Below, in pieces: positions 10,443 to 33,551 of a stretch of DNA of 64,000 nt. The translations under genes were made by a program, and so were the position numbers. Under the pieces are notes generated by a model. That model was not told the DNA's origin. It did not search any database and saw only the letters and a program-made list of their open reading frames with translations. Source of the DNA: Pararhodobacter zhoushanensis (lineage in GTDB: Bacteria; Pseudomonadota; Alphaproteobacteria; Rhodobacterales; Rhodobacteraceae); contig NZ_JAPDFL010000001.1 of assembly GCF_025949695.1 (NCBI RefSeq), positions 850,001-914,000 on the forward strand, read 5' to 3'. Within the stretch, counting starts at the first letter, position 1, and every line of letters begins with the position of its first letter.

Positions 10443-10466
10443 TGCGCCGCCAAGACCACTGACACA

Positions 10467-10489
10467 GCGGCCCGGCGTGGTCGGGCCGC
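10467..10489. terminator. Hairpin between convergent genes
   Basis: A perfect 8-bp stem GCGGCCCG/CGGGCCGC with a 7-nt loop lies between the convergent ends of the aldehyde dehydrogenase and sulfotransferase genes. There is no clear T-tract on either side, so it is a probable but imperfect bidirectional terminator. Confidence 0.5.
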
Positions 10490-10496
10490 AAGCCGG

Positions 10497-11153
10497 TCAG
10501 GTCGGTTGCAGGATATCGCCAAAGGCCGCGTAATCGGCGGCGTAATAGGCGTTGAGGCGGTCGATCTGGGCCGGGGTCAGGTCTTTCTTGCGCAGCTTTG
10601 GTCCACCGGTCTGCAATCGCGGCAAGGGCACAGTGGTTTCGGTCAGCGCCTGCATATCGGCCTCAAGCTGCTTGAGTTCCGAAAAATCATAAACCCGGTT
10701 GAAGTAGCCCGGATCGGTTCCCAGAAACGTCACCATCGGCAGCGTGTGGTGGTCGATGACGGGCACCGTCCGCACGTAGTCTTCCAGCCGGTCAATGAAC
10801 AGGCCAAGATCAGGATCGGGCGCCAGATCGGCCTTGGCCAGTTTGCCGCCGCATTTTTCCTTAGACAGTTCGCGGTGGTGAACCACGCGGTTGGAATAGG
10901 CCGACAGGAAGCGGGTGATCGGATCCCGGATGATGGTGATCTTGTGCAGCGGCGCCAGCTCTTCATGCGGCAGCTCGTCAAAGTGGATCGAGCTGTAAAG
11001 GTTGTGCACGAAGACGGTCTTGCCGTTCGGCCGGGTCCACGGCTTGAAAGGCTCGCCGGTCTTCATTTCGTGCAGCATGTTCTTGATCGACGTGCAGGCG
11101 ACCTTGGGAACCGAGAAATAGGCCAGATTATTGCGGCGGATGATCAACGGCAT
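10497..11153 (-). CDS. Sulfotransferase-family protein (carbohydrate type)
   Basis: A 218-residue protein resembling the Sulfotransfer_2 / chondroitin-type sulfotransferases, which move sulfate from PAPS to a sugar hydroxyl. The 5'-phosphosulfate loop appears as VPKVACTSIKN (about residues 15-25) and the 3'-phosphate region as IIRDPITRFLSAYSNRV, with the expected Arg, Asp and Ser. No signal peptide is seen, so it is probably cytoplasmic. ATG at 11153 is preferred to an upstream TTG. This is the first of four sulfotransferase-like genes in the polysaccharide locus. The donor is inferred from the family. Confidence 0.8.
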   Translation of the reverse strand: MPLIIRRNNLAYFSVPKVACTSIKNMLHEMKTGEPFKPWTRPNGKTVFVHNLYSSIHFDELPHEELAPLHKITIIRDPITRFLSAYSNRVVHHRELSKEKCGGKLAKADLAPDPDLGLFIDRLEDYVRTVPVIDHHTLPMVTFLGTDPGYFNRVYDFSELKQLEADMQALTETTVPLPRLQTGGPKLRKKDLTPAQIDRLNAYYAADYAAFGDILQPT

Positions 11154-11235
11154 GGTCGTTTTCCTGCTTTGCAAAGACGGATCGCGCGGGCGATCTGCGT
11201 AACCGGACCGACCCGCATGGCAGTCCGGGCGGCGA

Positions 11236-11946
11236 TCATGCGTCGTCTTCTTTCAGATGCGTCAGTTCGCGGCTCATCACAGCGTCGACACGGTCAAGAT
11301 CAAACGGCTCGCCAAGGAAATCATACATCGGCTTCAGCTTGGTGTGATCGCTGACGTAGTCATTGTAATGGATGTGCAGGCACCGTTCGGGGTGGCGCGT
11401 CCGGTATTGTGCAAAGGCAGCTTCGGCCTTGGCCAGCCGGGCCTTGACCTTGTCCGGGTCCATCGTGGCCCACCACCCCGAGCGCGCCACCTCGTCATGG
11501 TCGCGTGTGTTGAAGATAAAGCGGCTGTTCTTAAGGAAGCCGGCCAGGAAGTTCAGCGAAATGGGCAGCGGCGTGCCTTCGTTGGCCCAGCGGATTTCCT
11601 TGAACCCGGCGACACGGGTGCCCGGCGGCGGCGACAGGATTTCACGCGAAAAAACCTGAGCCAGCGACCGGCCATAGCGCGTCGCATTGATCTTTTCGCC
11701 GCCATACCACGGATGCTCGGGCGAGGTTTCGACGCCGTTGCGCGCGAGGTTGTTGAGGATGGTGTTGCCCTGCACTTCGTGCCACGAGCGCGCCATCAGA
11801 CCCAGCGTGTTGTTGTTTTCGCCCCGGATGCAATAGCCGGGGATAGCGTTGAGCAGGTTCTGCACCAAGGTTGAGCCTGACCGGCCATAGGTGACAACAA
11901 AGACGTGCCCCTCGATCCCGGCCGGTTTCGGTTTGGACTCTGTCAC
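11236..11946 (-). CDS. Sulfotransferase-family protein
   Basis: A 236-residue P-loop sulfotransferase-like protein. The PAPS loop is TYGRSGSTLVQNLL near the N-terminus and the 3'-phosphate segment is FIFNTRDHDEVARSGWW. The GTG at 11946 is the likely start, with AAGG about 10 bp upstream. It is 82 bp upstream of the other sulfotransferase on the same strand, so the two are probably co-transcribed. Acceptor is unknown; glycan modification is inferred from the locus. Confidence 0.8.
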   Translation of the reverse strand: MTESKPKPAGIEGHVFVVTYGRSGSTLVQNLLNAIPGYCIRGENNNTLGLMARSWHEVQGNTILNNLARNGVETSPEHPWYGGEKINATRYGRSLAQVFSREILSPPPGTRVAGFKEIRWANEGTPLPISLNFLAGFLKNSRFIFNTRDHDEVARSGWWATMDPDKVKARLAKAEAAFAQYRTRHPERCLHIHYNDYVSDHTKLKPMYDFLGEPFDLDRVDAVMSRELTHLKEDDA

Positions 11947-12092
11947 GTCGTGGGAACCTTGATCTTTCTACACACTTCGTCACGAATAGCGTGCTACCCA
12001 GAAGGGGACAACCAATTCCTGCTCAGGCTCCGCTGTTGTGAAATGCCGCTGAGAGGGCTTTACAGTCGCGTCCGCGCGCGGGAACAAGATGC

Positions 12093-13883
12093 ATGAATGG
12101 CACCGCTACTCCTCTGATTTCGGTCATCGTGCCGGTGTTCGACGTCGCGGCGCAGATCGGCGCGGCCATGGCCAGTCTGCTGGGCCAGACGCTGACCGAT
12201 TTCGAAGTGATCGTGATTGACGACGGCTCGACCGACGGGTCGGGCGCGGTGGCCGAGGCCGCGGTGGCTGGCGATGCGCGGTTTCGCTTCATCCGTCAGG
12301 CCAATCGCGGGCTTTCCGGCGCGCGCAACGCCGGGCTGGCGCTGGCGCGTGGGGCGTTTGTCGCGTTTCTGGACGGTGACGACGCGTTTGAGCCGGGTTT
12401 TCTGGCCGACCTGCACGCCGCGATCGAGCGTGAGAGCACCGACTGGGCCGCCTGTGCCGTGTTGCTGACCTATCCCGACGAAAGCGAGAGCACGCATCCC
12501 GCGATCCACGCCAGCACCGGGCCGGAAGCGGCGCGGACCATCGCGCTGACCGATGCCCGAGAAGTTGCGCGGCAGTTTCCGTCGGCGTGGAACAAGCTCT
12601 ATCGCCGGGCGCTGTTCGACGGGCTGGCCTATCCCGAGGGCAGCTGGTTCGAAGATCACGAGGTGTTCTGGGCGCTTGCCGCGCGGGCCCCGGCGCTGGC
12701 CTATGTGCCCGAGCCGCTGTACCGCCACCGTCGCGAGCGGGCAGGTCAGATCACCGGCGCCGACAGCGACCGGGTGTTCGAGCAACTCAGGGTGCTGGAT
12801 CGCCTGTATCCGTTGATCATGGCCAGCGGCATGACCAACCCGCACGAGGGCTACGCAAGGCTGGCGACGCGGCTGGTGCATGAACGCGCGCTGGCGCTGC
12901 GCGACCGCCGGCGACGCGCGCAGTTTCTGACCGGCGTTGTGGCGTTGTTCGAGCGGCTGGGGGTGCTCTGGTCGCCAGACTGGGATCCTGAGATCAGCCG
13001 GGGTCTGGGATTGGCACTGGCCGGAGAGAGGCCGCTGTCGGTGGTCCTGTTGGGGGACGCGCAGGCCGCCCTGCCGGGCGTGCTGGCGCAGACAATGGCG
13101 GATTTCGAGCTTGTGGTGGTGGGTCGCACGCTGCCCGCCGGGCTGCCGCCGGACCTGCCGGTGCAGCATCTGCAAGCGCCGGTAACGCTGGCTGCGCTTG
13201 CCGACACGCTGCAAGGCCGTTGGGTGCTGCTGCTGGGCGCGGGCGAGACGCTGTTGCCGGACGGCGCGATGCGGCTGGTCAATCTTGGCGAGGCCAGCAA
13301 GGCTCGGCTGGCGATGGGCGGGTTTGAGCGCTCAACGCAGGGCTATCACGACGGCTGGACCGACAACACGCGGGCCGGGGCTGATCTGGATGCGCTGCCG
13401 GTACACGGCGGTCTGATCCCGATGGGCGCGCGCCCGGCGCTGTTCTTGTATCCGTTGCTGGCCAATCGCGTGATCCGGCGCGATCTTCTGGCCGGCATGC
13501 AACCGGATCTGAGTGTCCCGGCGGGCATTGCCGCCGTGCAGGCCGTGGTCCTGTCCAGCGCTCTGGCGGCGCACAAGGCGGGCTATACACGGCTGGCCGT
13601 CGCGGGTGCACCGGATCGCCCCGTCGCTGTGCCGGGCTTGCTGCGCGCCCGCCGCCAGATCGCCGCGTTCCCCGACGAGCCTGCGCTGCCGCGCGGCTGG
13701 CGGGCGGTGTTGTTTCTGCGGCTGGTGCGTTTGCGCCGGGGCTGGGGTGTCTTGCGCTGGCCGCTGGCGCTGGCCCTTGCCCTGTTCGCACGATGGCTAT
13801 CCGCTGAGCAGGATGCCCGCGCCGACCCTGAAACGCCCCGCTGGGTGCACGCAGCTCTGCGGCTCTTTCGGCGCGCCCGGTGA
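12093..13883 (+). CDS. Glycosyltransferase family 2 protein with a second, degenerate GT-A-like half
   Basis: A 596-residue protein. Residues 1-310 form a normal GT2 domain: ISVIVPVFD, then IDDGSTDGS, then the metal-binding DGDD at 94-97 (FLDGDDAFEP). From residue about 314 a second GT-A-like pattern starts (PLSVVLLGDAQAALPGVLA, then DFELVVVG). There the metal-binding position reads LLGAGETLLP (Gly382-Glu385), so the acidic motif is lost. I infer an internal duplication with a catalytically dead second copy. There is no signal peptide, and the C-terminal region is basic and Leu-rich. It is followed by the 1,382-residue glycosyltransferase on the same strand. Confidence 0.85.
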   Translation: MNGTATPLISVIVPVFDVAAQIGAAMASLLGQTLTDFEVIVIDDGSTDGSGAVAEAAVAGDARFRFIRQANRGLSGARNAGLALARGAFVAFLDGDDAFEPGFLADLHAAIERESTDWAACAVLLTYPDESESTHPAIHASTGPEAARTIALTDAREVARQFPSAWNKLYRRALFDGLAYPEGSWFEDHEVFWALAARAPALAYVPEPLYRHRRERAGQITGADSDRVFEQLRVLDRLYPLIMASGMTNPHEGYARLATRLVHERALALRDRRRRAQFLTGVVALFERLGVLWSPDWDPEISRGLGLALAGERPLSVVLLGDAQAALPGVLAQTMADFELVVVGRTLPAGLPPDLPVQHLQAPVTLAALADTLQGRWVLLLGAGETLLPDGAMRLVNLGEASKARLAMGGFERSTQGYHDGWTDNTRAGADLDALPVHGGLIPMGARPALFLYPLLANRVIRRDLLAGMQPDLSVPAGIAAVQAVVLSSALAAHKAGYTRLAVAGAPDRPVAVPGLLRARRQIAAFPDEPALPRGWRAVLFLRLVRLRRGWGVLRWPLALALALFARWLSAEQDARADPETPRWVHAALRLFRRAR

Positions 13884-13954
13884 CGTGCCGTTGCAACGCC
13901 GGGGGTGACAGGCGATAAGCAGGCTTTGTGACTCCGATTTGAGCAAGGACTGTT

Positions 13955-16900
13955 ATGTTCCCGTTCCGAACCGCTCAAGGTGCCCGGTTTCAGTGTTTCG
14001 CTGATTTTTCGATGGCCGCGGTCCTGAACCTCAACTTCTATGACGAACAGCGCCAGACGATTCCGTTTCACCTGTCGATCCGGGCCACGGAAAAGCTGAT
14101 CGTGGTCAACCGCCGCGATGCGGCGGGGTGGCGGCGTGAGGTGGCGCTGCCGTGGCGGTTTGCCCCGCGACCCCTGAGCGTGGATCTGCATTTTTCGGCC
14201 GGGCGTGTCGAGGTCAAGGTCGACCACACACTGGTGGGCATTTTTGATGCGCTGCCCCGGCCTGACCGGACGGGGCGGCTGTTTTTGCGTCGGGGCTTTC
14301 CCGCGCTGAAGCAGATCGCGTGGGTGGAAACCGCTGGTGCGCTGGCCCAGGACAGTGTGCGCCTTGTCGAGCTCAAGCGCAGCGGCGATGCGCAGCCGGG
14401 CGTGCATCTGAGCGAGGCGTTCGAGGTTCTTCTGCGCGGCCTGCCCGCTACCCATGCTGCCGCCGGAACCCTGCGCGTTTCCGGTTTCCCCGAGGATATT
14501 CCCGCCGTCTTGCGCAGACTGCCCTTTCCGATGCGCAGCGGTCAGCCGGAATACGCGCTGGCGGCTGTCCTGCCCGGCCGCGTCTGGGACGGCGGGGCCG
14601 AGGCGCTGGATCTGGTCTTGAGCGATGCCACCGGGCGCGCGCTGGGTACGCTTGCGCTGGACCGCGCGCAGGTCGCCGCCCGGATCGAGGCACTGGCGCA
14701 GTCAGGCGGCTTTGCTCTGGACGACCGGGCGGCGTTGCAGGCGATCGAACACGCGCGCCACGCAGGGGTGCTGGCGCAGCTCACGCCAAGTGCGCGCGCG
14801 GCGTTGGGCGCTGCTGCGGACCTGTTCGGGCTGAGCCGCTATCTGGCCGAGGGGCGCGCCGAGGGCGCGGCGGAGACGGTGCTGATCCCACCGTCCGAGG
14901 AACCGGATGATCCGACGCCCTTGATCGCCGATCGCTTCGGCGCGCAGATGCGTGGCGCGCCTGACAGTGACCCGCTTGCCCTGCTGCGCACCGAGCTTGC
15001 GGCCCTGCCACACGCGGGCCCGCTGCGCACTGCGCTGATTACGCGGGTGACCGAATGGTTCTGCCTGCAGGGCCGCGTTCGCGATTTGATGGCCCTGCGC
15101 CGTGAACTGGCCGTGCCGCTGCCTACCCGTGCTGCTGACGGGGATTTGTGGACCCTGTCGATTCAGCTGCCGCTCGATTACGCCGAAGGGCAGTTTGACC
15201 GGGTGTCTAAAGCGTTATGGCAACTTGCGCCGGTCAAGCCCGCGTGGATCTCGACCCCCGCGATTGGCTGGGTTCTGGAACAGGCGGCCGTCTCGGCGCC
15301 CGATCTGGACGGCAACCTGCCGCTGGACGAGGCGCGCGACTACATCATCAGTGCAGCGCTGGATCTGATTGACAGCCGCGCGAGCGACTATTGGGACCGG
15401 ACTGAGTGCCGGTGCCTGATGCGCGGCACGGTGGCGGTCTTGGTCGCCTTGGATAGCCTGCCCGACTGGCTGGCGGATCGGGCTGTTGCCGCCGCGGCGC
15501 GTGTCTATGGTCTTAGCCCGACGTTCTGGGCGCAGATTGCCGCTGCGCAGGCGCTGTCAGCCTGGGTGTTGCCGACCGAATTGCGCACGCTGCAGGACGC
15601 CTTCGCGCAGCTCAGTACCCTGATCGAGCAGGGGGCACAGACCAAACCCGAGGGTCGCCGCGCGCTGAGCCTCAGTCTCGCGCTGTTCCGGCAATTCGGC
15701 GCGCGCGATTTGGTGCGGTTTCGCCGGGACCTGTTCGGGCCGGGCGGCGTGTCCGGGGACGATCCGGCAGGTGTGCAGGCGGCGCTGGTCGAAGGATTGG
15801 ATCCTGCCGAGTCTGCGCTGCGGGCGCTGGCCTTTCCCGGCGCTGTCCCGCCCGAAGACCCGGCGGTGCTGATCCACGCCCGAAAGGGGTTGCTGGCGGC
15901 CAATCCCGAGCTGGTGCGCGCACCCTTCGGGGCACAGCGTGCCGCGCTGCGTGCGGCAGCACGCCGGTTGCTTGCCGGACCTGCGCAGCCCGTAGTTCTG
16001 GCGCAGATCACGACCGGGCTGAGCGCACTGGGCGGGGTGAAGGGCGATTTTCTGGGTCTGACTCTGGGCTTGTCGCTGGCGCGTGGTCTGCTGGCGCAAG
16101 AGCGCACAGCCGAGGCGCAGGCGCTGCTTGAGAGGGTCGAGGCGCTGGCGGAAACGCTGGCCAGGCACGAGGAACGGGCGGCTCTGGCGACGCAGGCCGC
16201 GCCGCGACAGGCGCTGCAAAGCCTGCTGCACGCGCAGGGTGCGCACCCGGCCGTGGCGCGGATCGCCGCCGTGCTTGACCCACTGCTGGGGCCGGACCTG
16301 TCGGTCCCGCGCGACGACCGCACCGCCGATCTTTGGGCGCAGGCGGATCCGGTGCAGGATACGCTTTTGTGCCTGTATACCTGCCAGCCCAACCTGAGCA
16401 CCCGCGTGCAGACAATCCGCGAAACGTGGTTGCCGCTGCTCGCCGGGATGGGCGTGCCGGCGCTGATCTTTGTCGGTGGCGGCGACGGGCGACGGGACGG
16501 GGACGTGGTCTTTCTGGATGCGCCCGACGATTACGAAGGCCTGCCGCAGAAGTCGCTGGCGATGGCGCGCTGGGTGCGTGACCACACGCGCTTTGCGCAT
16601 CTGGTCAAGGTCGATGACGATTGCTTTCTGGACCCGGCAGCATGGTTCGGGGATCTGGCGCATCGGGGGGTGGACTATTATGGCCGCCGTCTGACGCGTG
16701 TGCGCGGTCAGATGGACCGCAGCTGGCACATGCCCAAGTCGCGCAGCGCGCGCGGGCGGCTTGAACTGGACAAGTCACCCGAACCGTCGGTCTATGCCGA
16801 TGGCGGCTCGGGCTATGCCTTGTCACGGCGCGCCATGGATTGTCTGGTCTCCGCAGCGGCCAGCCCCGGGGGACAAGAGCTGATCCACCTGTCCTTTATG

Positions 16901-18103
16901 GAGGACAAGCTGGTCGGCGATCTGCTGGCCAAGAGCGATATCTGGGTCGATGGCACCGACTACCGGGTCAGCGTCTTGCGGCGAACGAAGCCGGGCGGGC
17001 CCTTGGTCGCGGCGTGGGAGAACGGCTTTCTGCCCTTCGCCGGCGGTGGGGTGAAGCTGGCGCATCTGGACGGGCACGAGCGCATGGCCGAGGTGCTGGC
17101 CGGGTTGTCCGACCCCTTGCCGCGACCGTCCAAGATCTGGCCCAGCTTTCAGCCGGTGCGGCTGGGCGGGCGGTCGAACACGCTGGATCTGATCTCGTCT
17201 GCTGCGCAGTTGCGCGCGGTGAACGCGGCCCCGGTCGCCGTTGTCGCCTGTCTGCGCAACGAGATGTTCATGTTGCCCCGGTTCTTCGACCACTACCGCG
17301 CGCTGGGTGTGCAAGGGTTCCTGATGGCCGACAACGGCTCGGATGACGGGACGTTTGAGTATCTGGCCGAGCAACCCGATGTGGCGCTGTTTTCGGTCGA
17401 TACCCCCTACAACCAGTCGCATTACGGCGTGGCGTGGCAACAGGCGCTGATGGCCAACTTCCGTTCAGGCCGTTGGTCGCTGATGGCAGATGCCGATGAG
17501 TTGTTGCTGTGGAACGCCGATCTGACCGGCAGCCTGCCGGATCTGGTTGAAAGCGAGGATTTCGCCGGGGCCGATGCGGCGCGGATCTTCATGCTGGACA
17601 TGTATCCCCAAGGCTCTCTGGCGCAGGCCGATTTCGTCAGCGACACGCCCTTTGCGCAGGCCGGTTTCGTGGACCGTGACCCGTTTCTGGCCGCGTCAGC
17701 CGCGCGCGGGCCATATTCGGATTCGCCGATCTGGACCAGTGCCCTGCGTCACCGGCTGATGCCCGGCTCTCGCGCCGAGCTGTTCGTTGCGCAAAAGATC
17801 GCGTTGCTGAAATACCGGCCGTGGATGCGGCTGTCGGCGGGGCTGCATTTTGTGGCGGACACAAAGCTGGCGCGGCGCGCGCTGATCTTTGCGCATTTCA
17901 AATACAACGCGGCGTTCCGCGCCAAGGCGCTGGCTGAAGTTGCCCGCCGCCAGCATTTCAACAACGCCGAGGAATACCGCAAGTATCTGGCGCTGGTGTC
18001 CGAAGGACGCGACGTGATCTATGATCCAGACGTCTCGGTGCCGTGGGATCAGGCCGAATTCGTGCGCCGCGTGTGTGCCGGGGGCGGGCTGTCGGGCGAT
18101 TGA
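13955..18103 (+). CDS. Multidomain glycosyltransferase with N-terminal galectin-like module
   Basis: A 1,382-residue protein. Residues about 15-125 look like a galectin-type carbohydrate-binding sandwich: His39-x-Ser41-x-Arg43, Val-x-Asn52, then Trp59-x-x-Glu62, with the Asn-to-Trp and Trp-to-Glu spacings of galectins. Residues about 130-800 are Ala/Leu-rich and probably helical; no family is recognised. Residues about 802-1010 resemble GT31/fringe-type galactosyltransferases (VKVDDDCFLD, Asp887-Asp889; GGSGYALSRRA). Residues about 1094-1350 resemble GT2/GT92-like enzymes (CLRNEMFMLPRFFDHY, DNGSDDGTFEYL, MADADELLLW). The start at 13955 follows AAGGA. It ends in a 55-bp convergent overlap with the next gene. 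Confidence 0.85.
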   Translation: MFPFRTAQGARFQCFADFSMAAVLNLNFYDEQRQTIPFHLSIRATEKLIVVNRRDAAGWRREVALPWRFAPRPLSVDLHFSAGRVEVKVDHTLVGIFDALPRPDRTGRLFLRRGFPALKQIAWVETAGALAQDSVRLVELKRSGDAQPGVHLSEAFEVLLRGLPATHAAAGTLRVSGFPEDIPAVLRRLPFPMRSGQPEYALAAVLPGRVWDGGAEALDLVLSDATGRALGTLALDRAQVAARIEALAQSGGFALDDRAALQAIEHARHAGVLAQLTPSARAALGAAADLFGLSRYLAEGRAEGAAETVLIPPSEEPDDPTPLIADRFGAQMRGAPDSDPLALLRTELAALPHAGPLRTALITRVTEWFCLQGRVRDLMALRRELAVPLPTRAADGDLWTLSIQLPLDYAEGQFDRVSKALWQLAPVKPAWISTPAIGWVLEQAAVSAPDLDGNLPLDEARDYIISAALDLIDSRASDYWDRTECRCLMRGTVAVLVALDSLPDWLADRAVAAAARVYGLSPTFWAQIAAAQALSAWVLPTELRTLQDAFAQLSTLIEQGAQTKPEGRRALSLSLALFRQFGARDLVRFRRDLFGPGGVSGDDPAGVQAALVEGLDPAESALRALAFPGAVPPEDPAVLIHARKGLLAANPELVRAPFGAQRAALRAAARRLLAGPAQPVVLAQITTGLSALGGVKGDFLGLTLGLSLARGLLAQERTAEAQALLERVEALAETLARHEERAALATQAAPRQALQSLLHAQGAHPAVARIAAVLDPLLGPDLSVPRDDRTADLWAQADPVQDTLLCLYTCQPNLSTRVQTIRETWLPLLAGMGVPALIFVGGGDGRRDGDVVFLDAPDDYEGLPQKSLAMARWVRDHTRFAHLVKVDDDCFLDPAAWFGDLAHRGVDYYGRRLTRVRGQMDRSWHMPKSRSARGRLELDKSPEPSVYADGGSGYALSRRAMDCLVSAAASPGGQELIHLSFMEDKLVGDLLAKSDIWVDGTDYRVSVLRRTKPGGPLVAAWENGFLPFAGGGVKLAHLDGHERMAEVLAGLSDPLPRPSKIWPSFQPVRLGGRSNTLDLISSAAQLRAVNAAPVAVVACLRNEMFMLPRFFDHYRALGVQGFLMADNGSDDGTFEYLAEQPDVALFSVDTPYNQSHYGVAWQQALMANFRSGRWSLMADADELLLWNADLTGSLPDLVESEDFAGADAARIFMLDMYPQGSLAQADFVSDTPFAQAGFVDRDPFLAASAARGPYSDSPIWTSALRHRLMPGSRAELFVAQKIALLKYRPWMRLSAGLHFVADTKLARRALIFAHFKYNAAFRAKALAEVARRQHFNNAEEYRKYLALVSEGRDVIYDPDVSVPWDQAEFVRRVCAGGGLSGD

Positions 18104-19035
18104 CGCGGTCCGAACAGCGTTGCCAGTTCGGGAAAGTAGCGCTGGCGCAGCAGCTCGTTGCTCTCGGCATTCCGGGCGCGGATGCGGGCGCGCTGGGCCT
18201 CGCTCAGGCGCACACGTGTGCCGGGCTGCGGCAGGCGACGGCGCATCAGGCGGACCAGCAGAAAGAACAGCGGGTTCGCCGCGCCGTTGCGCAGCATCAT
18301 CGGCACCCGGCGGTTCAGGTCGCGGTACAGCGCGATCTCTTCGACGCTCAGCGATTCATTCTTGCGCGGCGGGGTTTGAAGCGGCGCGCGGTTCACGCCG
18401 GTCTGGGCGCAGAAGTCATCAAGCAGGTCGCGGTTCGGCATCAGCGCCGGATCGAACAGACGCACCGTCAGGTTTTCGCGCCCGACAGCATCGCTCCACA
18501 TCTGCACCCGGCGGTTGAAGTTCATCTTGCCGATCATGTCGTCGATATGCTCATCGAGCGTCAGCATCTCACCGCGGCGGATGTTCTCGGAATAGGTCGA
18601 GAGCATGAAATCTTCCTGACTGCGGTAATAGACGACATAGCGGACGTCGCCGAAAATGCCGCGCAGAAACGTGTGCAGCGCCGTGATCCGCGCCGGGTTA
18701 TAGCACCACGCGTGGATCTGTTCGCTCGAGGCCAGAAAGGTATGCTCGGGCCATTCCGCAACGCCCGCACGCAGCCGCGCCTCAAGACGGTCGACAAAGG
18801 CAGTCTGACTTTCCCGGCCCCGCACCCCGATCGCGTAGCGCTTGCCCTTCACGTCCAATATGTCCCCGGCGCGCACGATGGCGGCAAGGCCCAGCTCCAT
18901 CTGCGCGATGTTGCGCGGCGTGAACGGCTCGAACCGGATCCCCTGCGAGGACAGGGCGGACCGGTTCAGGTTCAGAAAAGACTGGATCGTGGTCGTGCCG
19001 GTCTTCTGCGTGCCGATGTGGATAATGGCTTTCAT
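18049..19035 (-). CDS. Sulfotransferase-family protein
   Basis: A 328-residue sulfotransferase-like protein with a strong PAPS loop near the N-terminus (HIGTQKTGTTTIQSFL). It also has a YRSQEDFMLSTYSENI segment typical of bacterial exopolysaccharide sulfotransferases. It is the last gene of a tightly packed minus-strand operon and overlaps the preceding glycosyltransferase by 4 bp. Its last 55 bp overlap the opposite-strand end of the 1,382-residue glycosyltransferase gene. The acceptor is probably the polysaccharide made by this locus (inference). Confidence 0.82.
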   Translation of the reverse strand: MKAIIHIGTQKTGTTTIQSFLNLNRSALSSQGIRFEPFTPRNIAQMELGLAAIVRAGDILDVKGKRYAIGVRGRESQTAFVDRLEARLRAGVAEWPEHTFLASSEQIHAWCYNPARITALHTFLRGIFGDVRYVVYYRSQEDFMLSTYSENIRRGEMLTLDEHIDDMIGKMNFNRRVQMWSDAVGRENLTVRLFDPALMPNRDLLDDFCAQTGVNRAPLQTPPRKNESLSVEEIALYRDLNRRVPMMLRNGAANPLFFLLVRLMRRRLPQPGTRVRLSEAQRARIRARNAESNELLRQRYFPELATLFGPRQSPDSPPPAHTRRTNSA

Positions 19036-20609
19036 GGCGTCTCGCGGTAGATCTTGACCAGCGCCTCGATATGCTCGGGCAGGCTGACCGGTGCCATGGC
19101 ATTGGCCCAGTACTGCGCCGGCAATGTGCTGCCGTCCAGAATTCGCTCAAGGACGTGACGGAACGAGTCGCTGTCATCGGCGCGGAACACCAGATCATTG
19201 CAGCGCCCCAGCTCCTGCGCGCCGCCCCGATCCGAGGTGATCAGCGGGATATGGCGGGCGTGCATTTCGATGGCGACCTGCGGCAGGTTATCTTCCCACA
19301 CGGGTGGCACCACGCCCAGATCGACATCGGCCAGCAGCGTCGGCAGCGTGTCGTGGGTATAGCCGTTCTGATGGTGCACAGCGCCCAGATGACCGCGCAG
19401 GGCACTCAGCAGCGCCATGGCTTCGGCATCGCCGGATTTGGCGGCGACGGTCAGATGAACCCGCTTGGCCAGCGCCTCGGGCAGCGAGGCGAGCGCGCGC
19501 ATCAGGAAATGATAGCCCTTGTCGCGCCGCATATAGCCCAGATAGGCCAGCCGGATCGTGCCATCGGTGCGCAGAAAGGCCGGGCGCGGTTTGCTGTAGT
19601 GCCATTCGCCCGCCTCGGCCGAGCCGATGTAGAGCGTGCTCAGCCGCGAGGTATGCACGCCGTGCTTCAGGGCGATCTGGCGCACCCGGTCAGACACCGC
19701 CAGCACCGAGTCGCAATGCGCGTTGATCAACGCCACCATCCGCGCGCGGCGGCGGGCAAAGGCCGCGGCCAAGGGGGCGGCGGCCGCAGGCGGCTGCGGG
19801 CGCGGTTCTGCGGGGGCGTGATGTGTCCCGGCAGCGGCGATCGGGGGCACATTGGCAGAGGCGGGCGACAGGGCGGCGGGTTCGGCCATTGTGACCAGTG
19901 CCGTCTCAAGCGCGGCATTGCGGCGCATATGGCGCGCGCGCAACACGCGGCGCAGGCCACGCCATGCTGCGCCCATCACCGGGCGAAAGAAGCGTTCATA
20001 AAAACCGGTTCCCGGCCCCAGCCGCCAGCGCGACAAGGACCAGGCCATGGCATAGGCGGCCCGGATCGAGCGCGGTTCGGGCTGGGCGGGCAGGCATCGG
20101 GTGCAATTGGTCCCGCCGTGAAAATCGGTGCAGGTCTCCCGCTCGGCGAACCACAGGTTCACTTGCGGACAGAACGGATAATAGTTGTGCAGCGACAGCA
20201 CGAAGCGGGTGCCGGGCCAGCGCTTTTTCAGGCTGAGCACATTGGCGGGCAGCCCTTCGAGGTTGTTGAAATGGATCACATCCCACGGGCCGGTCCGCTC
20301 GACGAATTCGGCAAAGGCGGCCTCGGTTTCGGCATGGTCAAGCTGCGCCGCGCCCGCGAAATCGGCGTGCGAGGGCGCGACCAGACCCGAATTTACCAGC
20401 GCATAGCGCGGGCTTTCCCCGCGCGCCAGCGTGATGACATGCGGCTTTCGCCGCAGCAGCGTGTGCGCCAGACCCGATGACAGGAACGCGGTTTCCACGC
20501 CGTCGACCTTGGACAAGCCCTTGATGATGTTGCGCTGATAGACGCTGACGCCGCCGCCGCGCTGCTCTGGGTCGCGGTGATCGGCCCAGTTGTAAAAAAG
20601 AACTCTCAC
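19032..20609 (-). CDS. Glycosyltransferase family 4 (group 1)
   Basis: A 525-residue GT-B retaining glycosyltransferase. The N-terminal acceptor domain starts RVLFYNWADHRDP and contains the Gly-rich loop RGGGVSVYQRN. A Cys-rich segment (YPFCPQ, then CTDFHGGTNCTRC) is seen in several GT4 enzymes. A Pro/Ala-rich linker follows. The C-terminal donor domain carries IRLAYLGYMRRDKGYHFLM and the acidic site around PPVWEDNLPQVAIEMHA. GTG start at 20609 overlaps the preceding stop by 4 bp. Sugar specificity cannot be read. Confidence 0.88.
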   Translation of the reverse strand: MRVLFYNWADHRDPEQRGGGVSVYQRNIIKGLSKVDGVETAFLSSGLAHTLLRRKPHVITLARGESPRYALVNSGLVAPSHADFAGAAQLDHAETEAAFAEFVERTGPWDVIHFNNLEGLPANVLSLKKRWPGTRFVLSLHNYYPFCPQVNLWFAERETCTDFHGGTNCTRCLPAQPEPRSIRAAYAMAWSLSRWRLGPGTGFYERFFRPVMGAAWRGLRRVLRARHMRRNAALETALVTMAEPAALSPASANVPPIAAAGTHHAPAEPRPQPPAAAAPLAAAFARRRARMVALINAHCDSVLAVSDRVRQIALKHGVHTSRLSTLYIGSAEAGEWHYSKPRPAFLRTDGTIRLAYLGYMRRDKGYHFLMRALASLPEALAKRVHLTVAAKSGDAEAMALLSALRGHLGAVHHQNGYTHDTLPTLLADVDLGVVPPVWEDNLPQVAIEMHARHIPLITSDRGGAQELGRCNDLVFRADDSDSFRHVLERILDGSTLPAQYWANAMAPVSLPEHIEALVKIYRETP

Positions 20610-21718
20610 GCCTCGTCGTCCGGCTTCGCAGGGGCACCGGTGCCGGCGGCCTCTGCCTTGTCCAAGCGCTTTTCCAGCAGGTTGAGTCGCAACGCCTGCC
20701 GCAACTGGATTGTCCGCATCTGCGCCAGTTCGAAGCTCAGCACAGCGACCGTCTGTTCCAGCTGGCGTTCCGTTGCGTCCTGCGGTGCGGGCAGGGCGGC
20801 GCGCAGCGCCTGCGTATCCAACCCTTCCGCCCCCGGCAGGGCGGCCAGCGCATCAATAGCGGCCTCGGCGCGCTGGCGGATGCTGTCGAAACCGGGCGCA
20901 TCGGTCAGGGCGTCGGTCGCGGCCTCGGCGTCCAGACTGGCTTGGGCGCGGTCAATCACCTGCCGGGCCATGTCCGCCGACAGGCCGGAGCGGTTGAGCG
21001 CCCGGCGAATGCCCAGAAGGCGGTCATCCATGCGCGGATTGGGATCGCGAGAGCCAGTAACCGCCGCCAGCGGCAGGCCATGACCCAGACCGGCGAGGAA
21101 ATCCTCAAACAGCCCGTCGCCGACGCGCAGCGATGTCTCGAAGCTTCGCAGCACAATGGCCTCGGGGCCGAAGATCTCGATCCACGGTTTGAGCGCCAGT
21201 GCGTAATCCCAGTGCACCGCCTCCATCCGCGCGCGCACGGCGGCGTCAAAGCTGCCGACATCGACGCCCATCTTGACCAGTTGGTTGTACCAGCTTTTCA
21301 GGTGCTCTTGCGGGGGGCGAAGATAGACGACAACCCGAAAGCGCAGATCGCGCGCGGTGTCGATCTGTGCACGCAACAGCGCGGTAGCGGCCGGATGGGC
21401 GCCCAGACGGATGAATTCTTCCGAGGAGACCAGCATCGACGCGCCTTCGGGCAGGGCACGGGTGGCAGTGAACAGCTCTTGCCACAACTCCTGCGCCGAG
21501 TGCTTGTTGCGGAAGTCATGCATCAGCTCGGTAACGCCCGCCGCCCGCAGCAATGAAAACGCCAGCGCCGAATGCTTGGAAAACTTGACCGGCGCTTCGG
21601 CGTAGTTCAGCCCCTGCTGCGCCAGCAGCACACGGTTGCTTTCCAGAAAAATCTGCAGCGCCGTGGTCCCGGTCTTGTAGTGGCCGATATGCAGGATCAG
21701 TTCGCGTGCGGTGCTCAT
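20606..21718 (-). CDS. Sulfotransferase-like protein with C-terminal coiled coil
   Basis: A 370-residue protein with the N-terminal PAPS-loop pattern HIGHYKTGTTALQIFL and the mid-protein segment VVVYLRPPQEHLKSWYN. The C-terminal 60 residues are heptad-rich (about LEQTVAVLSFELAQM onwards) and likely form a coiled coil. ATG at 21718 places the motif near the N-terminus as in the neighbouring homologue; an ATG at 21748 overlapping the upstream stop is also possible. It lies between the exporter ATPase and the GT4 gene in one operon. Confidence 0.8.
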   Translation of the reverse strand: MSTARELILHIGHYKTGTTALQIFLESNRVLLAQQGLNYAEAPVKFSKHSALAFSLLRAAGVTELMHDFRNKHSAQELWQELFTATRALPEGASMLVSSEEFIRLGAHPAATALLRAQIDTARDLRFRVVVYLRPPQEHLKSWYNQLVKMGVDVGSFDAAVRARMEAVHWDYALALKPWIEIFGPEAIVLRSFETSLRVGDGLFEDFLAGLGHGLPLAAVTGSRDPNPRMDDRLLGIRRALNRSGLSADMARQVIDRAQASLDAEAATDALTDAPGFDSIRQRAEAAIDALAALPGAEGLDTQALRAALPAPQDATERQLEQTVAVLSFELAQMRTIQLRQALRLNLLEKRLDKAEAAGTGAPAKPDDEA

Positions 21719-21740
21719 CGGTCCCGTTGCTTTGCTCCGG

Positions 21741-22412
21741 TCAGGCATTGTTCAAGGGTGCGGCCATGTTCCGCTTGTGATGCTCTATCGCCTCGTCGAG
21801 GTCGGTAAAATAGGCAAGCGAGCCGTTCTCAAGCACGATGGCGGCATCGCAGAACGAGCGCAGCTCTTCGAGGTTGTGGTTCACCAATATAGCACTGGAT
21901 CGCTTCATCCGGTCGCGAAACAGCGCCTGACTTTTGCTGCGGAACCGTTGGTCGCCGACGGCGGTCACTTCGTCGACAAGATAGGTGTCGAACGGGATGC
22001 CCATCGAGATGCCAAAGGTCAGGCGCGATCGCATGCCCGAGGAATACGTGCGCAGCGGCATGTGAAAGTGTCGCCCGATTTCAGCGAAATCCTGCACAAA
22101 GTCCATCAGCTCGTCGGTGTCAACGCCATACACCCGGGCCAGAAACCGGGTGTTCTGTGCGCCGGTCAGGTCGCGGTGAAAGCTGCCGCCAAAGCCGACC
22201 GGCCACGAGATGCTGCCGTCGCTCCAGACATCGCCACGGTCGGGCTGCATGGTGCCGGCGATCAGCTCGAGCAAGGTGGACTTGCCCGCGCCGTTGCCGC
22301 CCAGCAGCGCCAGCGACTTGCCGGTCGGCAATGTCAGGTTGAGGTTTCGGATCACGGGCGAATACTCGCCGCGGACCCAAAATCCCTTTGTCAGGTGGTC
22401 GAACTGGATCAT
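21741..22412 (-). CDS. kpsT: Capsule polysaccharide export ABC ATPase (KpsT/Wzt-like)
   Basis: A 223-residue nucleotide-binding subunit of an ABC-2-type polysaccharide exporter. Walker A is GGNGAGKST, the signature segment is RTYSSGMRSRLTFG and Walker B ends in YLVDEVTAVGD, all in the form typical of KpsT/BexA. It is short, without the C-terminal carbohydrate-binding extension of O-antigen Wzt, which favours the capsule type. It follows the KpsE-like gene by 15 bp, and the matching permease is divergent at 23805. The gene symbol is by resemblance. Confidence 0.9.
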   Translation of the reverse strand: MIQFDHLTKGFWVRGEYSPVIRNLNLTLPTGKSLALLGGNGAGKSTLLELIAGTMQPDRGDVWSDGSISWPVGFGGSFHRDLTGAQNTRFLARVYGVDTDELMDFVQDFAEIGRHFHMPLRTYSSGMRSRLTFGISMGIPFDTYLVDEVTAVGDQRFRSKSQALFRDRMKRSSAILVNHNLEELRSFCDAAIVLENGSLAYFTDLDEAIEHHKRNMAAPLNNA

Positions 22413-22427
22413 CGGGACGCCGCCTCG

Positions 22428-23723
22428 TTAACCCCGGTCGCGAAGGCTGTAGTAGATCAGCGCCAGGGCCGACCAGATCAGCCCGGCAAAGATCAGGGTC
22501 AGCAACACCAGCAGCGACCGCTGCGGATACTCTGCCCGTTGCGCCAGCGTCGGTTGCACATAGGTTGCCAGATACAGGCTCTGGCGCTGGGCGGTCGACC
22601 GTGCGGCATCAAGCGCGGTCAGAGCGGCGGTATAGGTACGCTCGGCGAATTCCTGATTGACCGTCAGGCTTTCAAACTGGGCGATCAGACGCGGATAATC
22701 GGTATCAAAGACAGTCACGTCCTGTGTGGCAAAGTTGCGCCGTTCTTCGCCGATGCGCTGGCGGATCACTTCGATGCGGCGCTCGGCCTGACGCACGCGC
22801 GGGTCGCTTTCGGCGGTGGTCTGCAACAGCAGGTCATAGTCAACGAGCGCCGTCGCCAGCGACTCCTGCAGCCCGTTGATCACGCCCATCCGTCCAGCGA
22901 TATCGGCCTGCGGGTCGACAATCTGCGTGCGGGCGCGAAAACTGGCGATGTCTTCACGCGCGCTGCGCAGGCGCGCCAGCGCGGCCTCAAGATCGGCCTC
23001 GGCGTTGGACATCGCGTCCGAGCGCGCCTGTTCGTTCAGCGCGTTGATCATCTGTTCGCTCTCGCTGACGATGATCCGCGCGATACGCTGCGCCATTTCG
23101 GCGGTATGCGCTTTGACCTGAACATCCATCAGGCCCGAGTTCATGTCATACGAGATGACAACCATCCGTTGCCAGAACCACAGCAGATCCTCGATCGTGG
23201 CATCGGGCCACAGGGAAAACAGCGGGTCCGAGTCCCAGTTTTGCGAATAGAGCGACCGAATATCGACCTGTTCCTGCACGCGTTCGACCAGTTGCTGGCT
23301 CTGGATATAGGCGTACAGGACATGGGTATTCGACGACGAGCCGCCGCCGACGATCGCGCTCAATCCCCCCAGCATTTCCGTTGCCGACGCGGATTCGTCG
23401 CTGCGCACGGTAAAGCCGGTGGTCGAGGCGTATTGGTCCTGCGCCAGAACGTACAGATAGGCCGTTGCCAGCGTGACCGGCAGCACGACCATCATGACGA
23501 ACGACAAAAAGAGCCCCCGATGGCGCCGCCGGATCCGAGCGGGCGCGGCGACGGGGCGCACCCGTATTTCGCCGGTGGGCTCGCTCTGGTCCGTGTCATT
23601 GTCCCCCGACAGCGCCGAGGCAGCGCGGGCCTTGCGCGCCGCCTGTCGTTCCGCTTGTCGCGCCTGCTGGGGGGTGCCGGGGTTCAGTTGCCGCTTGCCC
23701 CTTGCGGGTGTGTCGTCGTTCAC
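22428..23723 (-). CDS. kpsE: Capsule polysaccharide export inner-membrane protein (KpsE/BexC-like)
   Basis: A 431-residue polysaccharide co-polymerase-type protein. A basic, Ala-rich cytoplasmic N-terminus precedes a membrane helix (about residues 75-96), then a long periplasmic region rich in coiled coil, then a second helix near the C-terminus. This is the KpsE/BexC/CtrB plan. The start is taken as GTG at 23723 because GGAGAG lies just upstream; a TTG at 23735 would overlap that ribosome site. It is the first gene of a five-gene minus-strand operon (kpsE-kpsT-sulfotransferase-GT4-sulfotransferase). Confidence 0.85.
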   Translation of the reverse strand: MNDDTPARGKRQLNPGTPQQARQAERQAARKARAASALSGDNDTDQSEPTGEIRVRPVAAPARIRRRHRGLFLSFVMMVVLPVTLATAYLYVLAQDQYASTTGFTVRSDESASATEMLGGLSAIVGGGSSSNTHVLYAYIQSQQLVERVQEQVDIRSLYSQNWDSDPLFSLWPDATIEDLLWFWQRMVVISYDMNSGLMDVQVKAHTAEMAQRIARIIVSESEQMINALNEQARSDAMSNAEADLEAALARLRSAREDIASFRARTQIVDPQADIAGRMGVINGLQESLATALVDYDLLLQTTAESDPRVRQAERRIEVIRQRIGEERRNFATQDVTVFDTDYPRLIAQFESLTVNQEFAERTYTAALTALDAARSTAQRQSLYLATYVQPTLAQRAEYPQRSLLVLLTLIFAGLIWSALALIYYSLRDRG

Positions 23724-23804
23724 GCGGCTCTCCAAAGGTTATTTGCCTTGTCGGCGTGATTTCTACATAGTCCCCGCGCCAAAGGCCAGAAAAAGGACGT
23801 ACAG
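23724..23804. promoter_or_regulatory. Divergent intergenic region of the export genes
   Basis: An 81-bp region separating kpsE (minus) from the permease (plus). Promoters for both transcripts should lie here or nearby. TTGCCT at 23743 and TACATA at 23764 are 15 bp apart, which is short; no confident promoter can be called. Confidence 0.3.
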
Positions 23805-24632
23805 GTGGCGAGCGACATTTCAGGGCCACGTCTGCCAACCGGGCGCATTCCGGACGTGGCGTTGTCACGCAATTTCCGGTCGGTGCGCACGATTACGGCG
23901 CTGGTCCTGCGCGAGATGACGACGCGCTTTGGTCGCACACCCGGTGGCTTTGCGTGGGCCATCATGCAGCCGCTGGCGACGATCATCATTCTGGGTATGG
24001 CGTTTTCCCTGATCGCCCGGTCGCCTTCCCTGGGGACCAGCTTCATCTTCTTCAAGGCGACGGGGATCATGCCCTTCACCATGTTCAGGAGCAACTCAGG
24101 CATGATCGCGAAGAGCCTGAGCTATTCCAAGGCCTTGCTCTCTTATCCCGGTGTGACGTGGATGGATGCCGTGCTGGCGCGCCTGATCCTGAACACGCTG
24201 GTTACCGTTGCGGTTACGGTTCTGATCCTGACCGGCATCATCCTCTATGAAGGCCTGACGCTGATCATTGACTGGCCGATGGCCATCCTGTCGATGGCGC
24301 TGTCAGCGCTGCTTGGGTTCGGCATCGGTGTGCTGAACTGCTACCTGTTCGAACGCGTCGTGATCTGGTCGAATATCTGGGGCATCATGTCAGCGCCCCT
24401 GATGATCATTTCGGGCGTCATTCTGCTGTACGAGGATCTGCCCAGCGAAGCGCAGACCTATATGTGGTACAATCCGCTCATTCACATCACCGGCATGATG
24501 CGCGAGGCGTTCTATTCCACGTATCAGCCCAACTACATTTCGGTCACCTATGTGGTGCTCTTTTCGCTGATTCCGCTGGTCGTGGGTCTGCTGCTGCTGC
24601 GCAAGCATCACCTCTATCTGCTCAACCGCTGA
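23805..24632 (+). CDS. kpsM: Capsule polysaccharide export ABC permease (KpsM-like)
   Basis: A 275-residue ABC-2-type membrane subunit with about six membrane helices after a short cytoplasmic N-terminus (LREMTTRFGRTPGGFAWAI is the conserved amphipathic entry). It pairs with the KpsT-like ATPase encoded divergently 1.4 kb away to move the lipid-linked glycan across the inner membrane. GTG start at 23805 has AAGGA about 9 bp upstream. The outer-membrane KpsD-type partner is not in the window. Confidence 0.9.
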   Translation: MASDISGPRLPTGRIPDVALSRNFRSVRTITALVLREMTTRFGRTPGGFAWAIMQPLATIIILGMAFSLIARSPSLGTSFIFFKATGIMPFTMFRSNSGMIAKSLSYSKALLSYPGVTWMDAVLARLILNTLVTVAVTVLILTGIILYEGLTLIIDWPMAILSMALSALLGFGIGVLNCYLFERVVIWSNIWGIMSAPLMIISGVILLYEDLPSEAQTYMWYNPLIHITGMMREAFYSTYQPNYISVTYVVLFSLIPLVVGLLLLRKHHLYLLNR

Positions 24633-25627: not shown

Positions 25628-25818
25628 CCTGTTCCCCTTCGCCGCAGCCCAGCTAGGCCGCCGGGCTGATGCTGTCAAATCCTGCCGTACAGGCTGCGCA
25701 AAGTCCCGGCGCAAATCGAGTCGAATGCAAGGTGAACGCCATGATTTCGCCATAATCTCGGGCGCCGGGCGCCATGCGGTTGCGGCAGACTGGTCCCTGG
25801 TGGATTAAGGGTGTCATC

Positions 25819-30685: not shown

Positions 30686-31912
<1,227 letters not shown>

Positions 31913-32725
31913 TTATTCCATGCCCATCCGGTGCAGGTAGTCTTCGATCAACGGCACGTCCGAGGGGTTGTTCAGCTCCCAGAAGGATGCGCCCGGCGCG
32001 CTGACTTCGACGGCGGCGATCTTGTGGCCGTGCTCGATGAAACGCAGCTGCTCCAGCCCTTCGAGCTGTTCCAGCTCACCGGGCGTCAGGCTGGCATAGA
32101 GCCGCAGCGCTTGCGGCGTATAGGCGTAAAGGCCGACATGGTGGAACACCGGGATCGGACCGTCAGCCTTCAGCGTGCCGGTGAAGGGGATCACCTCTTT
32201 CGAGAAATAGATCGCGTTGCCCTGCAGGTCGCGCACCACCGTGGTGGCGCCGACGCGGTCGAGCCGCCGGTCGTTGCGGAAATTGTCCAGCGACTCGCGG
32301 TCGCAGCGCAGAACGGGCGTTGCGACCATGCGCGTCTCGTCCTCGCGCATGGCGTTGATCAGGGTCGAGACGAAATGCGGCGGGGTCAGCGGCGCATCGC
32401 CCTGCAGGTTGACGATGATCGGCTGGCCCAGTCCGGCGCGCTCGACGGCTTGTGCGACGCGCTCGGTGCCATTGGCGCAGGCGGGGTCGGTCATGATGAC
32501 ATCGGCACCCACGCGCTTGGCCTCGGCCGCGATGCGCTCGTCGTCAGTCGCGACGAACAGGCCGGTCACGCCGCGTGTGGACACGGCGGCGGCGCGGGCG
32601 GCCATCACCGAGCGTTCCAGCAACGTGCGCTCGATGCCCGAAACGCCTTTGAGCGTGGCCAGCGGTTTCGCGGGATAGCGGGTCGACGCATAGCGCGCCG
32701 GGATAACGATCACAGCATCACGCAT
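31913..32725 (-). CDS. kdsB: 3-deoxy-manno-octulosonate cytidylyltransferase
   Basis: A 270-residue enzyme activating Kdo to CMP-Kdo. The CTP-binding N-terminus [15 protein letters not shown] and the conserved VNLQGDAPL segment are present. The C-terminus carries the [12 protein letters not shown] stretch seen in this family. It overlaps kdsA by 8 bp, so the two are translationally coupled. CMP-Kdo is needed for lipopolysaccharide and for the Kdo linker of ABC-exported capsules. The position beside the capsule exporter suggests a dedicated supply, although it could be the housekeeping copy. Confidence 0.93.
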
Positions 32726-33551
32726 CGAAGTTCTCCTTGGTCAGCGCGTCATAGGCGCGCAACCGGCCGATCAGGGCCTCCATCTGGTCCAGCGGCACCA
32801 TGTTGGGGCCGTCCGAGGGGGCGTTGTCGGGGTCTTCATGCGTCTCGATGAACAGCGCCGAGATGCCCACGGCGCAGGCGGCACGGGCCAGCACCGGCAC
32901 GAATTCGCGCTGCCCGCCCGAAGTTGCGCCCTGTCCGCCGGGCTGCTGCACCGAATGGGTGGCGTCAAACACCACCGGATAGCCGGTCTGCGCCATGGTC
33001 GGCAGGCCCCGGAAATCCGTCACCAGCGTGTTGTACCCGAACGAGGTGCCCCGGTCGCACAGCATGATGTTGCGGTTGCCGGTGCTTTCGATCTTGGCGG
33101 CGACGTGGCGCATGTCCCAGGGGGCCAGAAACTGACCCTTCTTGACGTTGATCGCCTTGCCCGTCTCACCGGCGGCCAGCAACAGGTCGGTCTGACGGCA
33201 CAGGAAGGCGGGGATTTGCAGCACGTCGACGGCCTGCGCGGCTTTCTCGCACTGCCAGGGCTCATGCACGTCGGTGACAACCGGCACGCCGAATTCGTCG
33301 CGGATCTTGGCCAGAATTTCCAGCCCCGCGTCCATCCCCAGCCCGCGCTCGGTGCCGATGGACGAGCGGTTCGCCTTGTCGTAGCTGGCCTTGAAGATCA
33401 GCTTGGTGCCACTGGGGGCGCAGGCTTCAAGGATGCCCGCGCACATCGCCCGCGCGTGATCCAGACTTTGCAATTGGCAGGGTCCGGCGAGCAGCGCGAA
33501 AGGGTTCGATCCGCCGATGGCGATGTCGCCGATGGTGACGATATGGGACAT
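32718..33551 (-). CDS. kdsA: 2-dehydro-3-deoxyphosphooctonate aldolase (Kdo-8-phosphate synthase)
   Basis: A 277-residue enzyme condensing phosphoenolpyruvate with arabinose 5-phosphate. Family motifs are LAGPCQLQS near the N-terminus, [30 protein letters not shown] and [11 protein letters not shown]. The Cys in GPCQ is the metal-dependent variant feature, and [15 protein letters not shown] completes the active site. Ribosome site AGAGGAAA precedes ATG at 33551. It is the first gene of kdsA-kdsB-glf. Confidence 0.95.

Follow-up and report, generated by a model that had tools for sequence, protein, structure and literature searches.

A galectin-fold domain joined to GT31 and GT2-type glycosyltransferase modules within a capsule-type locus of Pararhodobacter zhoushanensis

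The stretch analysed here, called the window, is a 64,000-nucleotide segment of Pararhodobacter zhoushanensis (contig NZ_JAPDFL010000001.1, positions 850,001 to 914,000), and at 13955..18103 (+) it carries one intact open reading frame (ORF) encoding a protein of 1,382 amino acids. This protein presents, from N- to C-terminus, a galectin-fold domain, a second beta-sandwich, an alpha-solenoid, a glycosyltransferase (GT) module of family GT31, and a GT2-type module (PF13704). Galectins are regarded as eukaryotic lectins, and no published description of a bacterial galectin-GT31-GT2 protein was found in open-licence full texts. We consider it rather probable that the protein is a cytoplasmic subunit of a capsule or exopolysaccharide synthase, in which the lectin would bind the nascent chain and the GT31 and GT2 modules would elongate it, the chain being exported by a Kps-like system and sulfated.

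A first-pass annotation of the DNA had placed H39, S41, R43, N52, W59, E62, and D887-D889 in an intact ORF, and all of these positions were confirmed. On the whole protein, Pfam names Gal-bind_lectin at residues 22-97 (E 4.5e-4), Galactosyl_T at 847-996 (E 1.6e-7), and Glyco_tranf_2_4 at 1101-1194 (E 5e-22). Homologues amount to 386 proteins at E <= 0.001. The 120 of them that were listed include the window's own protein, and the closest named relative among the matches listed is Pararhodobacter zhoushanensis, with 88% identity.

The galectin-fold domain and its putative ligand site

The first-pass annotation had proposed a galectin-like N-terminus, with the predicted fold preset as the refuting test. 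In the model, residues 1-142 (13955..14380, +) are predicted to form a beta-sandwich that is of the galectin type across the whole domain. The PF00337 profile scores 25.2 bits on the isolated domain, above its curated cut-off of 22.1, and 20.1 bits, slightly below it, on the whole protein; of the 63 family domains scanned, that of the window among them, 52 match it at E <= 0.01. The best-matching solved galectin by profile is that of Toxascaris leonina (4hl0, E 1.7e-19), and identity to animal galectins in structural alignments is 12-14%. This animal galectin shares with the window domain the fold, the HxSxR pattern, and a tryptophan, W77, at the place of W59. The distances from Asn to Trp (7) and from Trp to Glu (3), likened to animal galectins in the first-pass annotation, are equal to those of N70, W77, and E80 when counted on the alignment. 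However, 4hl0 is a free-standing lectin, whereas the window galectin is built into a large enzyme.

The galectin-type signature H-x-[N/S]-x-R, N, W-x-x-E is present, and the stretch H39-x-S41-x-R43 ... N52 ... W59-x-x-E62 (14069..14140, +) is predicted from its conservation to be the ligand site. Of 121 aligned proteins, among them the query, 119 keep each of H39, S41, W59, and E62 and 118 keep R43 and N52, with two rows gapped at the site columns. The homologues thus retain the His, Asn, Trp, and Glu positions, whose loss, like a fold other than a beta-sandwich, would have refuted the galectin proposal. Conservation was also followed in 80 named genome loci, gathered by patterns derived from the C-terminal GT2-type module. 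In seven of these, the contig ends before or within the galectin domain, three show no galectin (L111, L114, and L115), and one carries it in a separate frame (L103), leaving 69 galectin loci; all six site residues are kept in 65 of them. The six ligand positions head the conservation ranking of all 142 positions in a 63-row alignment of the domain. Moreover, the top eight positions include six of the seven galectin contact sites, which we take from galectin-1 (hypergeometric P 2e-8, a value that treats positions as independent although the alignment rows are related). A near-fixed site in an otherwise variable domain is expected if binding is under selection.

Some galectin-fold proteins fail to bind lactose, and the window domain could likewise be a purely structural or dimerisation module that has lost sugar binding. 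Besides this precedent, S41 and A64 presumably differ from the galectin-1 residues. On the other hand, the conservation ranking of the six ligand positions and the site residues shared with 4hl0 argue against such a loss, and we regard it as very unlikely.

Comparison by region gave mean pairwise identities of 0.31 for the galectin domain, 0.54 for GT31, 0.62 for GT2, and 0.27 for the solenoid, the only compared region more variable than the galectin domain. Galectin and GT31 distances correlate (Mantel r 0.71 with 70 sequences, a value reached by 0 of 999 permutations), as do the other region pairs tested (r 0.64-0.82). Since every pair tested correlates, this indicates that the parts have travelled together and nothing beyond that.

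The transferase modules and the region before them

The GT31 (Galactosyl_T, PF01762) module covers residues about 795-1066 (16337..17152, +) and scores 31.8 bits against a cut-off of 23. Its Asp triad, DDD at residues 887-889 (16613-16621), is present in 78 of the 80 named loci, the exceptions being L115 (EAQ) and L116 (cut). A downstream ED(K) lies at residues 983-985, and the ED motif is invariant in a 41-row alignment of the window and 40 of the 78 available loci (L115 left out). Against the PDB, the module profile matched B3GALT6 (E 7.2e-10) and B3GALT5 (E 2.5e-7), and a single-sequence search matched B3GALT6 (1e-4). What is shared with these enzymes is about 100 residues of the N-terminal part of the module, including the Asp motif, and the same profile has weak unrelated matches too (NPPase, E 0.0055). 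B3GALT6 and B3GALT5 are single-domain Golgi enzymes. Judged by its sequence, the module belongs to the GT31 family with its catalytic motifs intact, and galactosyltransferase activity is predicted. The GT31 part of the earlier GT31/fringe-like label thus stands on the Pfam match, and its fringe part does not, as no Pfam Fringe match was obtained at E <= 1 in the 1,382-residue protein.

The GT2-type module (PF13704) covers residues about 1085-1382 (17207..18100, +), with 78.7 bits against a cut-off of 27.5 and a DADE motif at 17489-17500. D1179, D1181, and E1182 are found in 80 of 80 named loci, which were themselves retrieved by patterns from this module. Its profile gave one weak match in the PDB, to GmaR (E 0.0049). 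The earlier assignment to GT2/GT92 was right in proposing a second transferase of GT2 type, and GT92 was rejected, with no Pfam match to that family at E <= 1.

About 650 residues separate the galectin domain from the GT31 module. They hold a second small beta-sandwich without an assigned family (residues about 147-237, 14393..14665, +), whose strands appear in two models from different cuts and in which P207 and W211 are invariant (86-row alignment), followed by a modelled alpha-solenoid scaffold (residues about 238-795, 14666..16339, +). Helices predominate in the model of residues 130-805, which has a mean pLDDT (predicted local distance difference test) of 91.7. Comparison of this model with known structures and families gave no clear match, only weak ARM/HEAT/TPR-like ones. 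The lectin had been pictured beside the two transferases; this picture has to be given up for the sequence, since the second sandwich and a solenoid of about 560 residues intervene.

The statement that galectins are mainly known from animals overlooked plants. According to the passages on these enzymes in PMC4687291 and PMC4431829, six Arabidopsis GALTs (GALT1-GALT6) carry PF00337 and PF01762 on one chain, galactosyltransferase roles are reported for them, and GALT2-6 modify proteins. As in these plant enzymes (e.g. GALT2 and GALT5), the galectin of the window protein is N-terminal to GT31 in a single chain, so this precedent means that the pairing is not new. Nevertheless, the plant GALTs are described there as predicted type II Golgi membrane proteins, whereas the window protein has no evident membrane anchor: no strongly hydrophobic segment was found in its 1,382 residues, the best 19-residue Kyte-Doolittle mean being 1.59, at residue 825. 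The gap in the 672-residue GALT5 (domains 194-392 and 465-672) is about 70 residues, compared with about 650 here, and the GT2 module is an addition in the window protein. With a galectin that starts at residue 1 and such a hydropathy, the protein may work like a GALT but is not classed as one. What is new is that the protein is bacterial, that a solenoid spaces its lectin from GT31, that it has a further GT2 module, and that it sits in a capsule setting.

Lectin and transferase also share a chain in the polypeptide GalNAc-transferases, where a ricin-type lectin domain guides acceptor choice. These enzymes differ from the window protein in both lectin fold and transferase family.

The upstream GT2 partner, the capsule-type locus, and the proposed role

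Just upstream lies a GT2 protein of 596 amino acids (12093..13883, +; Pfam PF00535, E 3.9e-33). A comparison of the 23 listed homologues longer than 1,430 amino acids showed this partner joined N-terminally to the galectin protein in 18 of the 120 listed homologues, all of about 2,000 amino acids. Of the 69 galectin loci, 35 have the partner as a separate upstream gene and 17 have it fused, always on the same strand (52 of 52); these counts include L051 and L109, alike loci of one metagenome-assembled genome. Fusion and same-strand adjacency are the strongest sign that both proteins act together. By eye, the second half of the partner looks like a degenerate GT2 fold, and no DxD was noticed there.

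The surrounding genes are consistent with polysaccharide export. Downstream are found a GT4/GT1-type glycosyltransferase (19032..20609, -; Pfam), a KpsT-like ABC ATPase of 223 amino acids (21741..22412, -; PF00005), a KpsE/BexC/CtrB-like export protein (22428..23735, -; TIGR01010, E 1.1e-67, below the curated cut-off), and a KpsM-like ABC-2 permease (23805..24632, +; PF01061, and NF050053 with E 1.3e-25, below the cut-off). The KpsM and KpsE models were thus matched well under strict cut-offs, and the ATPase was matched only generically: its best NCBIfam matches, to exporters of teichoic acid and galactan, fall short of their cut-offs. Further on are a UDP-galactopyranose mutase (30686..31858, -; TIGR00031, 315.9 bits, above cut-off) and KdsB-like and KdsA-like genes for CMP-KDO synthetase and KDO-8-P synthase (KDO, 3-deoxy-D-manno-octulosonate; 31913..33551, -; NF003950 with 295.3 and NF003543 with 418.2 bits, above cut-offs). 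The locus also holds a further GT2 transferase, a PF02719 sugar-nucleotide enzyme, and a sulfate permease. With its KpsM/KpsT/KpsE-type exporter and nearby KDO genes, it is, by gene content, of the predicted ABC-transporter-dependent capsule type. These elements are shared with the KpsMTE, Bex, and Ctr capsule loci; to our knowledge, the textbook versions lack sulfotransferases and a galectin-GT31-GT2 enzyme.

Two sulfotransferase genes lie upstream, at 10497..11174 (-; Sulfotransfer_2, E 1.4e-15) and 11236..11946 (-; Sulfotransfer_3, E 5.1e-13). A probable third, at 20606..21748 (-), has no match of its own in Pfam, NCBIfam, or PDB, and over 362 columns its product is 42.5% identical to a protein of Tropicibacter that carries a sulfotransferase annotation and whose gene likewise sits between a GT gene and an ABC ATPase. 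A 328-residue protein (18049-19035, -), also without a match in Pfam, NCBIfam, or PDB, is distantly similar to a Tropicibacter protein with a sulfotransferase annotation (23%, E 6e-10).

Neighbours were counted by tblastn with the window proteins (E < 1e-10). Among the 69 galectin loci, relatives of the GT4 gene were found in 42, Kps-type genes in 32 (the ATPase in 31), sulfotransferase-like genes in 40 (the probable third counted), and the mutase in 27. In the 49 loci with long flanks, of at least 6 kb before and at least 8 kb after the frame, the numbers are 33, 28, 29, and 22, respectively.

The frequent sulfotransferase-like neighbours, the short ATPase, for which Pfam finds only P-loop ATPase models, and the distance in sequence between galectin and transferases would also suit a terminus sensor or hand-over module, which would recognise a finished or modified (e.g. 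sulfated) end and stop elongation or hand the chain over for export. For some O-antigens, Wzt carries out such recognition with its C-terminal sugar-binding domain. However, 69 of the 70 uncut loci that bear a galectin have the lectin in one frame with the transferases rather than with the transporter (the exception is L103), and we find this function unlikely.

Near the KpsM-like gene, two overlapping frames with RTX calcium-binding repeats were observed (25774-28570, +).

In O-GlcNAc transferase, TPR repeats bind the protein substrate, and the long solenoid could do the same in a system for protein glycosylation rather than capsule synthesis. The galectin would then steer the enzyme to partly glycosylated sites, a nearby RTX protein being a possible substrate. 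A relative of the first RTX frame is near 23 of the 69 galectin loci, and the plant GALT2-6, in the passages cited above, act on proteins. Nonetheless, those 23 loci are a minority and the surrounding export, KDO, and sulfation genes fit a polysaccharide, which makes this explanation decidedly unlikely.

The capsule synthase is the reading that we prefer. The N-terminal galectin-fold domain would bind either the acceptor end or a part of the nascent chain that contains galactose, and the helical solenoid would space and position this domain. The GT31 module would add a sugar, probably galactose in beta-1,3 linkage or one related to it, and the C-terminal GT2-type module would contribute a second. 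Another transferase would come from the adjacent GT2 protein, which relatives have in fused form. The KpsMTE-like transporter would export the chain, and the neighbouring sulfotransferases would sulfate it. Of this scheme, the computations show the fold, the conservation of the site, the intact catalytic motifs, the fusion with the upstream GT2, and the gene content of the locus; the cytoplasmic location, the sugar recognised, the linkages formed, the benefit of the lectin for processivity or acceptor choice, and when and where sulfation occurs are inferred. In ABC-transporter-dependent capsules, the chain is synthesised in the cytoplasm prior to export, so a cytoplasmic lectin would be able to meet it. 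Given the ABC-exporter locus and, by hydropathy only, no evident membrane segment, the cytoplasm is most likely where the lectin meets the nascent chain. A lectin holding the growing glycan, as the first-pass annotation had suggested, agrees with the capsule locus and could serve processivity or acceptor selection; the processive or alternating synthesis that the annotation derived from it is conjectural. More specifically, the cytoplasmic galectin may be an acceptor clamp in a modular sulfated-galactan synthase (GT2, galectin, solenoid, GT31, and GT2), the bacterial counterpart of the plant galectin-GALTs, presenting a galactose-containing acceptor to the protein's own GT31 and GT2 modules and to its GT2 partner; we take this version to be a nearly even call, leaning slightly to doubt.

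Several observations weigh against the capsule synthase. Four of the 69 loci (L067, L084, L105, and L110) have lost at least one of the six site residues, and the seventh galectin-1 contact, Arg73, which we do not treat as defining, presumably corresponds to A64 here, a variable position with mixed residues in relatives. The galectin is missing by profile from L111 (Sulfurisoma) and L114 (Ideonella), whose hosts we take to be betaproteobacteria and which keep the GT31 and GT2 modules, and from L115 (Pseudooceanicola, 9341-13234), where the GT2 module is intact and EAQ replaces the GT31 DDD, so that its GT31 has possibly decayed. Such GT2-keeping relatives suggest that the galectin is dispensable for the core chemistry. 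Moreover, no Kps-type relative was found by tblastn in 21 of the 49 long-flank loci, which weakens the general claim, although the relatives may have diverged or lie in a cluster elsewhere. KdsB and KdsA relatives are near just 4 and 3 of the 69 galectin loci, respectively. Furthermore, the mutase suggests galactofuranose, a sugar that ordinary galectins are not known to prefer.

A conserved bacterial galectin with two transferases provides an apparently soluble system, in a culturable host, for asking what a galectin does in a GT31 enzyme. The role of the lectin in the plant galectin-GALTs is itself unsolved.

Spread and variant relatives

The window has a GC content of 64.3% and starts within a 23S-5S-tRNA-Met cluster; the codon-position GC of the ORF, 0.73/0.50/0.79, follows the same pattern as its neighbours. 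In its own genome (4.65 Mb, two contigs) the gene is single copy, and two other matches cover only the last module. Of 198 genomes sampled from the family, 7 contain the long protein at E < 1e-200, counting that of the window, and two more, G047 and G100, match only the last module (59-64% identity). The galectin profile was found in 8 of the 198 genomes of the family and 2 of 398 of the phylum. Outside Rhodobacteraceae, Methylobacterium sp. Leaf118 has a full-length relative with an intact site (L099, 9263-13420). In Falsigemmobacter intermedius (L103) the galectin occupies its own frame of 209 amino acids (9998-10624), upstream of the rest (10833-13946), which may be either a true split or a sequencing fault.

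Two genomes from a different genus of the family have a second architecture, with a weak galectin and GT31 some 360-385 residues on, in frames of 797 (L129, 1-4208) and 717 amino acids (L127, 1-3867). The galectin profile gave E 4e-9 and 9e-6 on a small frame set and 7.3e-7 over the whole first genome, and GT31 gave E 3e-18 and 4e-31. Their site retains H, R, N, W, and E, with Ala or Asp in place of Ser. Against this architecture, Pfam names neither galectin nor GT31 at E <= 1 in the 600-residue piece scanned.

At least 80% of the protein is carried by 5 of 72,556 plasmid records. The rhamnose genes rfbABCD were not seen in the parts of the Sulfitobacter D7 and Palleronia plasmids that were read, and they are close by on the other three plasmids (Thalassococcus S3, Tropicibacter oceani, and Sulfitobacter W027). 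The protein also marks, among roseobacters and their relatives, a probable sulfated capsule that contains galactose, in these three cases on plasmids with rhamnose genes. Sulfitobacter plasmids with rfbABCD and glycosyltransferases are described as biofilm-related in a 2026 paper (PMC13386836).

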